Assembly: GCA_013152275.1 (NCBI GenBank)
Contig: JAADGS010000099.1
Location: 1-52,946 of the forward strand
Origin: Actinomycetota bacterium
Lineage (GTDB): Bacteria; Actinomycetota; Acidimicrobiia; Spongiisociales; UBA4744
Reading direction: 5' to 3'
Length of the DNA stretch: 52,946 nucleotides
Part shown: positions 4,719 to 9,651 of the stretch, in pieces
How positions within the stretch are numbered: position 1 is the stretch's first letter
How the letters are laid out: each line of letters opens with the position of its first letter
The notes under the pieces: model-generated
The model's input: only the letters and a program-made list of their open reading frames with translations
Databases searched by the model: none
Told to the model about the DNA's origin: nothing
Made by a program: the position numbers and the translations under genes

Positions 4719-5180
4719 CTACACACCCTTTACCCAAAGCCGCCCACCGAGCTTCCGGCCGCCCTCTCCTGCTGCTGGAGTCGCCGTCGGTCTACCGGAT
4801 AGCCATGGGCCGTTTGACCACGATCCCCCATGGCAATCTACTCGAGACGCAACCTTGCCGCCGATGAGGATCGGGACGACGTGCTCCTCGTCGTCGTCCT
4901 CGAACACAGCCAGCAGTTCGAGACGGGCTCCCAGATATCTGAGGTAGTTGCGCAGAGTGGAGAGCTTCACGTCACCGGCCCGCTCGAGATGTGAGATGGC
5001 GGACTGGCTGATTCCCAGCTCGGCCGCCAACTCGGTCTGGGAACGGTCGAGGGCACGACGAAGCTCATAGAGGCCGATCTCAGGCGGTGTGTCTTCCCGT
5101 AGCGCATCGAGCCGCTCGGAAGCGCCCGGACGCGCCACCGCTTCTTCGTGAAGCCGGCGGTAGCTCTTGGTGGAAGGCAT
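4719..5180 (-). CDS. HigA-like XRE-family antitoxin
   Basis: A 153-residue protein starting at ATG 5180, with AGGAG seven bases upstream. Residues about 38-98 hold a cro/C1-type helix-turn-helix (SQTELAAELGISQSAISHLE) followed by a segment ending LGARLELLAVFEDDDEEHVV, typical of the antitoxin of HigBA-type pairs in which the toxin gene comes first. Relatives commonly end shortly after this point, so the last 45 or so residues, glycine- and arginine-rich, look like read-through into non-coding sequence after loss of the original stop. It would neutralise the upstream toxin and repress the pair, but that toxin gene is broken. Confidence 0.75.
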   Translation of the reverse strand: MPSTKSYRRLHEEAVARPGASERLDALREDTPPEIGLYELRRALDRSQTELAAELGISQSAISHLERAGDVKLSTLRNYLRYLGARLELLAVFEDDDEEHVVPILIGGKVASRVDCHGGSWSNGPWLSGRPTATPAAGEGGRKLGGRLWVKGV

Positions 5181-5195
5181 CAGCAGTTCTCCTGT

Positions 5196-5581
5196 TCAGT
5201 CGGTCGGGTCCTCGTCAAGTAGCCCTTCATCTCGCAGCTCTCGGAGATGGGTGTCGTAGAGGTCTTCCGCGACCGGGATCGCCCACTTGTACCACTCCTC
5301 CCATCGCCCTGACCTGTCCCCGCCCAGAGAAAGGATGCGTGTCGCCGTGGGCTGAACACGAACAGCACCTGCAACGCCCCGCCCTCGGACACCCGCAGTT
5401 CCTTCATTCGGGGATGGCGAAATGGCGTGACTTCGCCTACCGCAGGGCGCTTCAGAATGGGGCCGTGCTCGGCGAACAACATCGCTCGTTCGTCGAGCGC
5501 CTCCTGCTGCTCCTCGGCGAGTCCTCGCCACCATTCCTCGAACTCCTCGATGCACTCGATTTCCCACACCGACACAGACAT
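5196..5581 (-). pseudogene. RelE/HigB-family toxin, frameshifted
   Basis: It starts at ATG 5581. The first frame encodes a RelE-like N-terminus (EFEEWWRGLAEEQQEALDE, then RHPRMKELRVS and VLFVFSPRRHA). The family-typical end (GGDRSGRWEEWYKWAIPVAE, then DLYDTHLREL) is found only in the next frame, ending with TGA at 5198-5196, 15 bases before the antitoxin start. The switch lies near 5335-5345 and fits loss of one base. The toxin would be an mRNA-cleaving ribosome-dependent nuclease if intact. A sequencing error or programmed slip could mimic this, but no slippery heptamer is seen. Confidence 0.7.
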
Positions 5582-6082: not shown

Positions 6083-6551
6083 CCGACCTGGGGGACAGGC
6101 TCGTGCCGACTTCACATAGGGTGAGAAGAGGCTTCTCCTCACACATTCCACTCGCCGACTCGACGTCGAGTAACCTCTGAGTAGGCTCGCCCCGTCAGTC
6201 CGTTCCTGGATGGGCTGTTTGTGACGGCGGCGACCTTCTCCCTGGCAGGTCGCCGCTGTCGCGTCCACCATCGACGTTTCCCCAGTGCCTCGATCCCCAA
6301 CCGTTACGCCGTTCCGCCGACCCCTTCCGGCTTCGCCGTACTCCCCCCAACGCTTGCTTCGCTCGCTGGGGGAGAAACAAGTCGCTTCGCTCCTTGGGGG
6401 AGGTGTCCTCGGAGATCCGGCCGAGGACGGAGGGAGTCTTGACGAGCGTTGTGAAGGTGGTCCGCCAGGGCCGAAGGGGGTCCATGGCAGGCGGCCTCGG
6501 TGGCGGAAGGAATCCACGTACTTTCTTGGGCCGGTGTTGCTCGACGGCTTC
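6083..6551. other. Intergenic region with palindromic repeat cluster
   Basis: No gene is supported. At 6120-6141 there is an imperfect hairpin (GTGAGAAGA and TTCTCCTCAC). From about 6320 to 6425 there is a cluster of short GC-rich hairpins, for example CCCCCAACG...CGCTGGGGG, followed by TCGCTTCGCTCCTTGGGGG. The cluster shares its opening with a second one at 27738-27860. Confidence 0.5.
6320..6425. repeat. GC-rich palindromic repeat cluster, copy A
   Basis: It opens with TTCCGGCTTCGCCGTACT followed by a run of C, almost the same as the opening at about 27742 (TTCCGGCTTCGTGGTACT plus C run). Both continue with alternating C-run/G-run hairpins whose loops contain TCGCTTCGCTCC or TCGCTGCGCTCC. 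The two clusters diverge in detail, so this is a family resemblance rather than a copy. It could act as a transcription terminator, REP-like element or transposon trace; nothing in the sequence decides this. Confidence 0.5.
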
Positions 6552-7322
6552 CTAATTGCTGTGGATGACCGCCATCAACGGTGCCCAATGGGCCACCGCT
6601 TCCCCATAACGGTCCCCCGCCGTCTTGAAGTCGCCCATATCCAGAGCTTCCAAGGATGCATGCACATCACCGGCCGTCTCATCGAATACCAACTCGGTAT
6701 CGTTGAAGAACCCCGCGACGGACCCGTAGTCCAGCTCCACCATCGACACTGCAGGAAAGTCGTCGAGCCAGGTTCGAAACTCGTCGAGTTCCTCCGTGAC
6801 CACATCCTCGAACCCTGCCCCCCGCAACGTGTCGAGGGCGGAAGTCACCCGGTCGGTCGCCTGCACCAACGAAGTCCGATACCGAATCGACGTGCCATCG
6901 ATTCGCGATACCAGTTCACGTTCTGTCGAATCAAAGGCCACAAACCAGCGCAACGGCACGTGCCATGCCGACGTGAGGATGTGCGACCGGAGCGACGGCT
7001 GACGGTCGTAGAGACGGGAGAGCTCATCGGCCGCCCTGGCAGCCACCTGCTCCGGCACGATCGCGTCACCGCCGATGTCCGAGTACGCGTTGTGGAAAGC
7101 GAGCAGACCTTCCAACACACGGAGCCGAGGAAAACGCGGGCAGAGGAACCGGTTTCCCCGCCACTCCGCGAGCAGCGCATCGTCCTGCATCGGCTCTGCA
7201 AGGAGGCCGAAGGTTCCTGCAGCCATGTGAGGCATCGGCGGATGGTCGACAACGACCTGCCCGGGCAACGTTTGCTCGGGAAGGTACACACGCAGGAAAG
7301 CTGTCCGAATCACAGGCGGCAT
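6552..7322 (-). CDS. Conserved hypothetical protein
   Basis: A 256-residue soluble protein starting at ATG 7322. I do not recognise a catalytic motif. It has a beta-rich N-terminal half (FLRVYLPEQTL, then TFGLLAEPMQDDALLAEWRG) and an alpha-helical acidic C-terminal half (DEFRTWLDDFP, then DVHASLEALDMGDF). No signal peptide or membrane segment is seen. Proteins with this look are common as single genes in actinobacterial chromosomes and have no known role. It is the first gene outside the tRNA-Phe repeats and runs divergently from the E1 dehydrogenase transcription unit, so the 7323-7432 gap holds two promoters. Confidence 0.7.
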   Translation of the reverse strand: MPPVIRTAFLRVYLPEQTLPGQVVVDHPPMPHMAAGTFGLLAEPMQDDALLAEWRGNRFLCPRFPRLRVLEGLLAFHNAYSDIGGDAIVPEQVAARAADELSRLYDRQPSLRSHILTSAWHVPLRWFVAFDSTERELVSRIDGTSIRYRTSLVQATDRVTSALDTLRGAGFEDVVTEELDEFRTWLDDFPAVSMVELDYGSVAGFFNDTELVFDETAGDVHASLEALDMGDFKTAGDRYGEAVAHWAPLMAVIHSN

Positions 7323-7432
7323 GCTACTCAGCCACGATCATTGACAGACACAAGATCGGGCATTCTCCGGGAGAATCATGCTCTCGGCCCACTACACTGA
7401 TAGCACCGGACAATGGGAAGGAGCAGTCGCGA

Positions 7433-7609
7433 ATGCGAGTAGCGGTCTACGGCATAACCCCTCTCGGCGTCGAGGTCGCCCTACGACTTCGTATTGTTCG
7501 CACAACCCGTTCCACAGCATCAGGTCCCGCCGCAGGCGGGACCAAGTCTTTTCTTGGACATCAGCACACGCCCGTCCCCGCCGGATGTTGCGGGATCGAC
7601 GGCGACTGA
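7433..7609 (+). CDS. Putative BCAA-rich leader ORF (uORF)
   Basis: A 58-codon ORF with a good ribosome-binding site (AAGGAG, 8 bases before ATG 7433) ends at TGA 7607-7609, 11 bases before the GTG of the E1 dehydrogenase gene. Of its first 23 residues 10 are valine, leucine or isoleucine (for example VEVALRLRIV at 13-22). A perfect terminator-type hairpin lies inside the ORF at 7523-7543. This resembles leader-peptide attenuators of branched-chain amino acid operons, but the ORF runs past the hairpin, which is not classical. It could instead be a short real protein or chance. Confidence 0.45.
   Translation: MRVAVYGITPLGVEVALRLRIVRTTRSTASGPAAGGTKSFLGHQHTPVPAGCCGIDGD
7523..7552 (+). terminator. 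Terminator-like hairpin in the E1 leader
   Basis: GGTCCCGCC (7523-7531), loop GCA, GGCGGGACC (7535-7543) make a perfect 9-bp stem, followed by AAGTCTTTTC. It has the form of an intrinsic terminator with a short interrupted T-tract and sits about 80 bases before the E1 gene start, after the isoleucine- and valine-rich part of the upstream ORF. It is likely a premature terminator (attenuator). Confidence 0.6.
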
Positions 7610-7620
7610 AGGGAGAAACG

Positions 7621-9651
7621 GTGGAAGTCGTTGCCGAGCTACAGGACAACCACAAGACCTTGGGCTTAACCGACGAGCAGGTCGTCAACATGTATCGGGG
7701 GATCCTGCTCACACGAAGACTCGATGAGCGAATCTGGGCGCTGAACCGCCAAGGGCGGGCTGCATTCGTCGTTTCTGCCTCCGGGCAGGAAGGATCACAG
7801 GTTCCTCCAGTGATGGCGATGAACCCCGACATCGACTGGGCCCTCCCGTACTATCGGGACCTCGGCACCGTGCTCACCTGGGGCTTGACGCCCGAACAGG
7901 TGCTTCTTGGTGTCATGGCCAAGGCCGACGATCCCTCGAGCGGGGGACGCCAAATGCCATCTCATTGGTCGCTGCGGGAACGTCGTATCTTCTCCCACTC
8001 CTCACCCATCGCAACGCAGTACCCGCATGCGGCAGGCATCGCCAAGGTGGTCCAGCGAGACGGTACCGGAGCGATCGTGTTCGTATCGGGTGGCGAAGGC
8101 TCCACGTCCGAAGGCGACTGGCACGAAATGATGAACTTTGCCGGGATCCATGGTTTGCCGCTGATCGTCCTCATCGAGAACAACCAGTACGCCATCTCCG
8201 TGCCCGAACGAGAGGAAGTCGGTGGACACATCGCCGCCAGAGCGGCCGGATACGGGGTATACGGAGTGGTTGTCGACGGCAATGATCCGCTCGCGATGTA
8301 CAAAGTCACCAGGGACGCTGCCGATCGCGCTCGGCGAGGTGACGGGCCGACCTTGATCGAAGCGCGAACATATCGTTACTACGCGCACACGTCGGACGAT
8401 GACGACACCCTCTACCGCAGCCGTGAGGAGGTCGAGATGTGGAAACGGCGCGACCCTCTCGGCCAACTCCGCCAGTACCTCATCGAGGCACGCCTGCTGA
8501 GCGACGAGGACGACGAACGCATGGAGGCCGAGATCGCCCAAGAGATCAAGCAGGCCGTCGCCGCAGTCGAGGCCGCTCCGGATCCCGACGATCCGTTCTC
8601 GATCGTGTACCTCAACCCGATCACTCCGGCACAGCCTGCCGTGGAACCCGAACCGCCAGTCGAAGGCGAGGAAACCAATCTCATCACAGCCATCAACCGC
8701 ACGCTGCATGAGATCATGGCGCGCTATCCGGACACGGTGGTCTTCGGTGAAGATGTCGCCGACCCCAAAGGGGGCGTGTTCAAAGCCACACAGGGACTCG
8801 AGGTCGCCTTCGGAAACGACCGCAGTTTCAACATGCCACTCGCCGAGTCCCTGATCGTCGGTGTCGGCGTCGGCATGGCGGCGGCCGGCAAGAAACCACT
8901 CGTCGAGATCGAGTTCGCGGACTTCATCCACCCCGCCTTCGACCAGATCGTCTCGGAGGTCGCCCGCATCCATTACCGCACGAAGGGCAGGTGGCAGTGC
9001 CCACTGGTGATCCGCGCACCGTACGGCGGCGGCATCCGTGGCGCCCTCTACCACTCGCAATCGGTCGAGGCGTTCTACACGCACATACCCGGGCTGAAAG
9101 TCGTCATCCCGTCGACACCGGCCGACGCCAAAGGTCTGCTCTGGTCCGCGGTAGAGGATCCGGATCCGGTGATGTTCCTCGAACCGAAGAAGCTGTATCG
9201 ACTGGCGACGGGTCCGTTCCCTGCCGGGGAGTATCGTGTCCCACTCGGCAAGGCCGCCATCCGCAGGGCGGGCACCGATCTCACGATTCTCGCCTACGGG
9301 ACCATGGCACGGTTCGCTCTCGAAGCCGCTGCTCAGCTTGCGGAGTTTGGCCTCTCCGCCGAAATCATCGACTTGAGGACGCTGAAGCCCCTCGATTGGC
9401 CGACCATCGAGGCCTCTGTCGAAAAGACGACTCGGGTACTCATCGTGTATGAGGACAATGAATTCGGTGGATACGGAGCAGAACTCGCGGCACAGATCGC
9501 GGACAAGGCGTTCGAGCACCTGGATGCGCCGGTCCGTCGCTACGCCAGCCCCGATGTGCCGGCGTTCCCGTTCAACGCCAAGCTCGAGGCAATGGTCATG
9601 CCCAACACGGCCGGCATCGTCGAGCACGCCTTGGAACTGTCCAAGTACTGA
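7621..9651 (+). CDS. Fused E1 alpha/beta subunits of branched-chain 2-oxo acid dehydrogenase type
   Basis: A 676-residue thiamine-diphosphate enzyme that decarboxylates 2-oxo acids and passes the acyl group to a lipoyl E2. The N-terminal half is E1-alpha, with the ThDP motif from GGEGSTSEGDWHEM to IENNQYAISV. The C-terminal half, from about residue 350, is E1-beta (VFGEDVADPKGGVFKATQGL, then FADFIHPAFDQI). An acidic proline-rich linker joins them. The start is GTG 7621, with GGGAG seven bases upstream; longer in-frame starts run into the leader. E2 and E3 genes are not nearby. Branched-chain specificity is favoured over pyruvate by its overall resemblance to BCKDH E1, but acetoin or pyruvate is not excluded. 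Confidence 0.88.
   Translation: MEVVAELQDNHKTLGLTDEQVVNMYRGILLTRRLDERIWALNRQGRAAFVVSASGQEGSQVPPVMAMNPDIDWALPYYRDLGTVLTWGLTPEQVLLGVMAKADDPSSGGRQMPSHWSLRERRIFSHSSPIATQYPHAAGIAKVVQRDGTGAIVFVSGGEGSTSEGDWHEMMNFAGIHGLPLIVLIENNQYAISVPEREEVGGHIAARAAGYGVYGVVVDGNDPLAMYKVTRDAADRARRGDGPTLIEARTYRYYAHTSDDDDTLYRSREEVEMWKRRDPLGQLRQYLIEARLLSDEDDERMEAEIAQEIKQAVAAVEAAPDPDDPFSIVYLNPITPAQPAVEPEPPVEGEETNLITAINRTLHEIMARYPDTVVFGEDVADPKGGVFKATQGLEVAFGNDRSFNMPLAESLIVGVGVGMAAAGKKPLVEIEFADFIHPAFDQIVSEVARIHYRTKGRWQCPLVIRAPYGGGIRGALYHSQSVEAFYTHIPGLKVVIPSTPADAKGLLWSAVEDPDPVMFLEPKKLYRLATGPFPAGEYRVPLGKAAIRRAGTDLTILAYGTMARFALEAAAQLAEFGLSAEIIDLRTLKPLDWPTIEASVEKTTRVLIVYEDNEFGGYGAELAAQIADKAFEHLDAPVRRYASPDVPAFPFNAKLEAMVMPNTAGIVEHALELSKY

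Follow-up and report, generated by a model that had tools for sequence, protein, structure and literature searches.

Between a divergently transcribed gene and the gene for a fused E1 alpha-beta subunit of a branched-chain 2-oxoacid dehydrogenase, the window (the whole 52,946-nt stretch of DNA analysed here) carries a short open reading frame (ORF) that encloses a hairpin followed by a T-rich stretch (Table 1). The activity of E1 on branched-chain oxoacids is deduced from the leucine dehydrogenase (LeuDH) gene that adjoins it in relatives, and E1 is the gene that would be controlled by an element in this leader. The original prediction was of an amino-acid attenuator in front of E1, and its description of the layout stands: ten of the first 23 residues of the ORF, recounted, are Val, Leu or Ile; a good ribosome-binding site precedes the start codon; the perfect hairpin and its T-rich tail lie inside the frame; and 11 bases separate the stop codon from the GTG start of E1. 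Further upstream, a -10-like element makes a transcription start ahead of the ORF likely, and transcription would begin at about position 7405; TAnAnT-like boxes also lie 5′ of LeuDH in 17 listed loci.

Table 1. Features of the leader region in the window. G000 is the window genome and G001 the second genome of its genus; G002 and G003 belong to other genera of the same family.
Feature	Positions	Strand	Remarks
Divergent gene, 256 aa, no Pfam family, bounding the leader	6552-7322	-	Also adjoins the leader in G001 and the intact LeuDH-E1 pair in G003
Putative -10-like element TACACT	7393-7398	+	G001 has TAGACT at the equivalent position, as does G003 ahead of LeuDH
Shine-Dalgarno-like GGGAAGGAG of the ORF	7415-7423	+	Read from the sequence; GGAAGGAG retained in G001
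58-codon ORF, translation starting MRVAVYGITPLGVEVALRLRIVR	7433-7609	+	Stop codon 7607-7609; 7433-7609 reads MRVAVYGITPLGVEVALRLRIVRTTRSTASGPAAGGTKSFLGHQHTPVPAGCCGIDGD
Codon 3, GTA	7439-7441	+	Makes up 10% of valine codons; inherited from LeuDH, where it is the top synonymous outlier among 129 columns
Second, upstream hairpin CGAGGTCG-CCCTA-CGACTTCG inside the ORF	7471-7491	+	Both arms identical in G001
Perfect 9-bp hairpin with 3-nt loop, GGTCCCGCC-GCA-GGCGGGACC	7523-7543	+	Encoded by the LeuDH motif GPA(L)GGT; terminator-like stem
T-rich stretch AAGTCTTTTCTTGGA 3′ of the stem	7544-7558	+	Unchanged in G001
GGGATCGACGGCGACTGA, like the last codons and stop of the G002 LeuDH (GGATCGAAGTAGACGGAGACTGA) with a 6-nt deletion	7592-7609	+	Read from the sequences
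E1 Shine-Dalgarno AGGGAG, immediately 3′ of the relic stop codon	7610-7615	+	Unchanged in G001
Fused E1 alpha-beta, branched-chain 2-oxoacid dehydrogenase, 676 aa	7621-9651	+	PF00676, PF02779, PF02780; LeuDH neighbour in relatives

The stem begins 30 codons after the start of the ORF, which reads through the hairpin to 7609; the hairpin tail is AAGTCTTTTC, and the sequence after the stem reads AAGTCTTTTCTT. Taken alone, the pattern is not beyond chance, a scan having found two terminator-like sites in 2 kb against 1.6 expected in shuffles, and it is the comparison with relatives (G001 and the LeuDH genes across this order of Acidimicrobiia) that raises the hairpin above chance. A genome-wide repeat or operator was ruled out, as the palindrome is single copy in the 3.07-Mb window genome even when one mismatch is allowed. 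The covariance models of Rfam 15 (T-box, riboswitches, attenuators) gave no relevant match over 6500-8500 at E values up to 10, and, with z = -0.3, folding of the complete leader is on a par with that of shuffled versions, giving no alternative global fold. The second, upstream hairpin could be a pause hairpin. Elsewhere in the window, on the minus strand at 4719-5567, a helix-turn-helix ORF (4719-5180) comes after a RelE/HigB-like stretch containing IEEFEEWWRGLAEEQQEAL; judged by eye only, this is a possible toxin-antitoxin pair.

The ORF has a recognizable ancestry. Its place is occupied by a LeuDH gene in sister genera and in most relatives. In G002 and G003, LeuDH ends about 11 bases before E1, and the gene order of G003 (divergent 286-aa gene, LeuDH, E1) parallels that of G000 and G001 (divergent gene, ORF, E1). 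At the DNA level, the leader of G001 aligns with the LeuDH 5′ region (CGTACCATCCGCACAACCCGCTCCACAGCATCAGGTCCCGCCGCAGGCGGGATC versus CGGACCATCATCGCAATCCACTCCACAGCCCTCGGTCCCGCTCTCGGCGGGACT) with a score of 49 against a shuffle maximum of 35, and the leader of the window genome with a score of 39 against a maximum of 38; at the protein level, LRTIRTTRSTASGPAAGGIKSF in the relic matches LRTIIAIHSTALGPALGGTRF in LeuDH. A LeuDH profile search ranked the two relics first and second among 1002 sequences, with modest scores. Neither G000 nor G001 was found to have an intact LeuDH-type gene at another locus, and the LeuDH coding pattern is absent from both; each has three PF00208 matches, all in 461-695-aa open frames with a full-length domain, unlike the LeuDH type. 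As synteny, DNA alignment and profile search show, the ORF is not a dedicated leader peptide but an in-frame LeuDH relic, composed of the N-terminal codons and the last few, which now forms the leader of E1. Its richness in Val, Leu and Ile is thus largely inherited from the N-terminus of the enzyme and is by itself no evidence of tRNA sensing. A Rossmann-fold remnant, considered because RVAVYGITPLG resembles a nucleotide-binding motif, was dropped since the alignment puts the ORF on the LeuDH N-terminus.

Comparison of the relics in G000 and G001 separates the peptide from the RNA. Differences affect 25 of 177 positions, with no gaps, and are distributed 7/8/10 over the codon positions; pN is 0.12 and pS 0.20 (pN/pS ~0.6), while E1 has a pN of 0.03 and a pS of 0.33. 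The flat codon-position pattern and the ratio indicate that the relic peptide is barely constrained. The hairpin has a single change in 21 nt (G-C to G-U), the 15-nt tail has none and the stretch 7499-7558 has two in 60, so that constraint, for the two genomes compared, seems to fall on the RNA element and scarcely on the peptide; G001 keeps the ORF length, the hairpin and the T tract of G000. The intergenic stretch before the relic shows 28 mismatches and 6 gap positions in ~110. It could be argued that ORF and hairpin are functionless leftovers of a recently deleted LeuDH gene, as the flat codon-position pattern and the pN/pS ratio would allow; the genus is represented by only two genomes, in which an open frame is unsurprising (in simulation, it stays open after 25 random changes in 53% of cases), and within the relic the contrast of hairpin plus tail with the rest reaches only P = 0.03. 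This reading is nevertheless improbable: hairpin and T tract together are changed at one position in 36, far less than expected from the E1 synonymous rate of 0.33 (P ~1e-5), the hairpin is held at synonymous sites of intact genes, and it outlives LeuDH at the same place in two other families, with compensatory change.

In the intact LeuDH genes of the order, the motif GPALGGT is spelled GGT CCC GCN NTN GGC GGG ACY almost everywhere. All nine pairs are present in 65 of the 81 LeuDH genes in the order and in 2/56 outside it, where pooled codon usage would predict 0.43%; these genes are related by descent, so that 65/81 does not amount to 65 independent events. An alignment of 34 non-redundant LeuDHs (mean identity 59%) has 129 columns with a conserved amino acid; synonymous codon choice stands out most at codon 3 and along the unbroken run of eight codons for GPALGGTR, in which GGT reaches 94% (16% pooled) and GGG likewise 94% (21% pooled). 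In full-stem genes, the second codon after the Arg is TTT for 35 of 38 Phe and TAT for 24 of 26 Tyr, each used at 18% in the pooled set, and some Leu codons in the T-rich part after the stem are TTA or TTG. The terminator rule of the scan is satisfied by 42 of 58 LeuDHs in the order and by 1 of 24 outside; the combination of a G+C-rich stem and a close T run is thereby found in these 42 genes, in the window, and in G064 and G132, two genomes discussed below. Of 51 LeuDH genes of the order, 46 have the stem beginning 36 codons past the start codon. A looser hairpin pattern occurs in 74 of its 137 genomes, usually just once and then at LeuDH; the reversed pattern, used as a control, turned up rarely. 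Most of the genomes compared are metagenome assemblies.

Order-wide selection on the hairpin at synonymous sites, affecting both stem and T tract, is well supported by these codon choices. The palindrome is no mere by-product of the protein motif, which is spelled with different codons outside the order. Nor does adjacency to E1 suffice to explain it: in G505 and G513, members of the same class, LeuDH adjoins E1 and the palindrome is missing. Within the order, the full stem is absent from the LeuDHs of family f2, from the second copies G044:C79 and G050:C49 and from G118, none of which lies on the contig stretch of E1. The element is also dispensable, at least one pair being lost in seven LeuDH genes located on the contig of E1, and also in GPS variants. 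Outside the order, two LeuDHs of family f20 carry a full 9-bp stem (G205:C108:15136, locus L195, where a distant E1-like gene adjoins LeuDH, and G270:C32:2438), while the other listed f20 LeuDHs do not; chance, transfer or convergence are all possible. In four f4 loci (L009, L018, L022 and L021), a TAGAGT box lies ~20 nt before the LeuDH start, which suggests that the transcript is nearly leaderless and that the coding sequence would be almost the whole leader.

Where the protein changes, the pairing tends to follow. In f3 LeuDHs with Leu in place of Thr, the partner base on the other arm has changed as well, converting U-A into G-C (three sequences); in the G134 LeuDH, Thr to Ala turns the pair into U-G; and in the stem of G064, G-C is replaced by A-U with pairing kept. 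Wobble pairs are tolerated at six of the nine stem positions. In a chosen set of 25 sequences, which was not picked for pairing alone because broken or weakened LeuDH stems were included, 93.8% of cells are paired and covariation is 0.209, versus 0.164 ± 0.010 after shuffling (0 of 500 shuffles as high). Together with the location of the T run on the sense strand, these observations point to an element that would act as RNA rather than DNA. The hairpin might accordingly act on the finished mRNA, as a processing or stability element or as a protein site (possibly for LeuDH itself) in the 5′ coding region, a role with which the stem, its G-U tolerance and its retention 5′ of E1 are compatible; this is highly improbable, as it leaves the sense-strand T tract unexplained and as G131 and G132, two genomes of one genus, have different stem sequences, unlike what a protein site would require.

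Upstream regions of E1 that lack the LeuDH coding pattern (18 were read) show that the hairpin has been retained before E1 in three LeuDH-less lineages, namely G000/G001, G064 and G131/G132. These belong to three families in which other members have an intact LeuDH, so the losses are most simply regarded as independent. In G064 (family f7), GATCCCGCC-CCA-GGCGGGATC is followed by ACTTTTTT (also read as ACTTTTTTGG), 127 nt after TACAAT, and the open frame across the hairpin reads DPAPGGITFL, which is the LeuDH frame. In G131 (f8), GGTCCCGCC-CCG-GGCGGGACC is part of a 14-bp palindrome without a T run, whereas its congener G132 has AGGCTCCGC-CCCA-GCGGAGCCT and then TCTTGTTT at the aligned place, the differences between the two being paired. 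In G064, G131 and G132, just as in G000/G001, a -10-like element precedes the hairpin by 120-134 nt. Gene and hairpin have both been lost at this place in f2 (G006-G009), f5 (G028, G029), G061, G112, G113, G115 and G118.

Two of these families have leaders of their own. In the four f2 loci (L234, L235, L236 and L237, from G006-G009), a conserved short ORF beginning ATG GGC GAT ATT TCC (MGDISGR...) lies just 5′ of E1; it has no hairpin, and in G006 its stop overlaps the next ATG. It is perhaps another LeuDH remnant, serving as a translational-coupling leader. The f5 leaders (L016, ~1180-1500, and L019, from G028/G029) are long, similar to each other, G+C-rich and without LeuDH; one frame 5′ of E1 holds AKTAGPSYRGHF, resembling a decayed STALGPALGGTRF, and an Rfam scan of this leader gave no match.

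Termination at the hairpin is likely. In the LeuDH genes, however, a spacer of 2-3 nt (CG or CGY) separates stem and T run, so that termination would be weaker there and a hairpin-stabilised pause would also fit; the G131 stem without a T run likewise speaks against a terminator. Such pauses are known to form ~11 nt from the base of the stem, where a G stands 10 positions ahead of the pausing base. The LeuDH genes show this arrangement at CC|G, and CCG is found in 38/65. RNA polymerase would then halt until the first ribosome arrives, in the manner of the his and trp leaders, instead of terminating. We regard this as unlikely, however, given that the T run is itself under selection, that G064 and G132 have near-canonical terminators, and that CCG no longer stands at that place in the relic and in G064.

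The preferred reading, to which we give a probability of roughly 0.6, is that the hairpin is a terminator-like attenuator within a gene, which translation would relieve and which stayed behind as an orphan leader once LeuDH was lost. In most of the order, the element would consist of codons 37-47 of LeuDH (GPALGGTRFFP), the gene directly before E1, the two genes forming a pair for branched-chain amino acid breakdown. An RNA polymerase arriving before the ribosome has cleared the first 36 codons would tend to stop or pause, whereas a closely following ribosome would cover the stem and allow LeuDH and E1 to be transcribed. The pair would thus be expressed when its own first codons are translated briskly and cut short upon stalling, for example at uncharged Val, Leu or Ile tRNAs; such stalling would switch a catabolic operon in the right direction without an antiterminator. 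In the genus of the window, LeuDH would have lost its middle by deletion; what persists as the 58-codon ORF is its N-terminal codons with the hairpin and T-rich stretch, followed by its last codons. This retention leads to the proposal that E1 kept the attenuator, and suggests that the hairpin regulates branched-chain amino acid breakdown.

Codon 3 bears on the signal. It is GTA in 44 of 51 LeuDH starts of the order (e.g. L023:387-395 and L008:4629-4637, the latter on the minus strand), where the surrounding sequence is TTG/ATG GGN GTA TTC, and in none of 7 outside; GTA persists in the relic; the LeuDH start codons are weak (TTG in 32 of 51). A weak start followed by a rare GTA would render ribosome arrival sensitive, and these two features by themselves make it possible that the leader senses charged branched-chain tRNA. 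A more explicit version is offered tentatively, and would more probably fail than hold in all its parts: the first 36 codons of the enzyme would be the leader peptide of the operon, GTA and the weak start would set the arrival of the ribosome, the terminator at codon 37 would read it, branched-chain amino acid breakdown would be transcribed only while Val, Leu and Ile tRNAs are charged, and the lost gene would leave an orphan attenuator. As for the expectation that relatives' leaders would share both control codons and hairpin, the hairpin is conserved (in G001, in LeuDH genes and at LeuDH-less loci), and the relic peptide hardly is beyond the GTA, two genomes being compared.

The prediction of an attenuator before E1 is therefore upheld for a conserved terminator-like hairpin in a probable leader, inside an ORF, but not for a purpose-built leader peptide. 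Blocking of the hairpin by translation, suggested from the outset, is the mechanism that would best fit an ORF running through the hairpin. Mutually exclusive folds were not found: when 28 LeuDH 5′ regions are folded to a consensus, the terminator hairpin is its sole helix, making a classical antiterminator unlikely. An amino-acid attenuator of the classical kind, in which a dedicated peptide rich in Val/Leu/Ile is combined with alternative RNA folds, is accordingly very improbable. The 10/23 composition and the rare GTA at codon 3 recommend it, and the ilvB leaders of Actinobacteria also overlap a terminator with Ile/Val/Leu codons (PMC1262725); against it, the composition comes largely from LeuDH, the peptide is hardly conserved, the consensus fold offers no antiterminator, no Rfam family matches, and the ORF, instead of stopping before the terminator, continues past it.

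Searches for bacterial regulatory RNA usually target the gaps between genes; the terminator-like element described here appears to be written into the codons of a conserved enzyme motif. It has been kept by selection in one order, is largely absent outside and has outlived the enzyme gene in three lineages. A hairpin without its enzyme gene constitutes a clean natural test of protein-independent function, offers a plausible route for the birth of leader peptides from an enzyme gene, and makes it possible to test attenuation in an operon for catabolism instead of biosynthesis. No published description of the element was found in the open-access literature searched.

Among known systems, the leucine/valine dehydrogenases (Glu/Leu/Phe/Val dehydrogenase family) are the source of the relic, which aligns to their N-terminal region with GPALGGT, but G000/G001 no longer have the catalytic and NAD-binding portions. 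The pyrL ORF of Escherichia coli itself runs through its terminator, without an antiterminator, and the frame likewise reads through the hairpin in G000, G001, G064 and intact LeuDH genes; pyrL, however, is a dedicated leader peptide and the signal for pyrBI is UTP. In both cases, an intrinsic terminator, here a probable one, is tied to a translated leader ORF; at pyrL a close ribosome prevents the hairpin through coupled translation (PMC5021804), as would be the case here, where the leader is or derives from the N-terminus of the enzyme itself and the operon is catabolic. The ilvB leaders of Corynebacterium, Mycobacterium and Streptomyces similarly have an Ile/Val/Leu-rich short ORF overlapping a terminator hairpin with poly-U (PMC1262725), but they are biosynthetic, with a dedicated leader and no enzyme gene carrying the hairpin. 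In E. coli, terminators function well when placed within the first 100 bp of a coding sequence, and a ribosome following closely suppresses terminators (PMC4824070). Such intragenic terminators (tR2 constructs and predicted E. coli sites) resemble the present element in lying early in a coding region and, as is proposed for it, in being opposed by translation (PMC4824070, PMC5021804); they are engineered or incidental, whereas the element found here is held at synonymous sites throughout an order and outlives its host gene.
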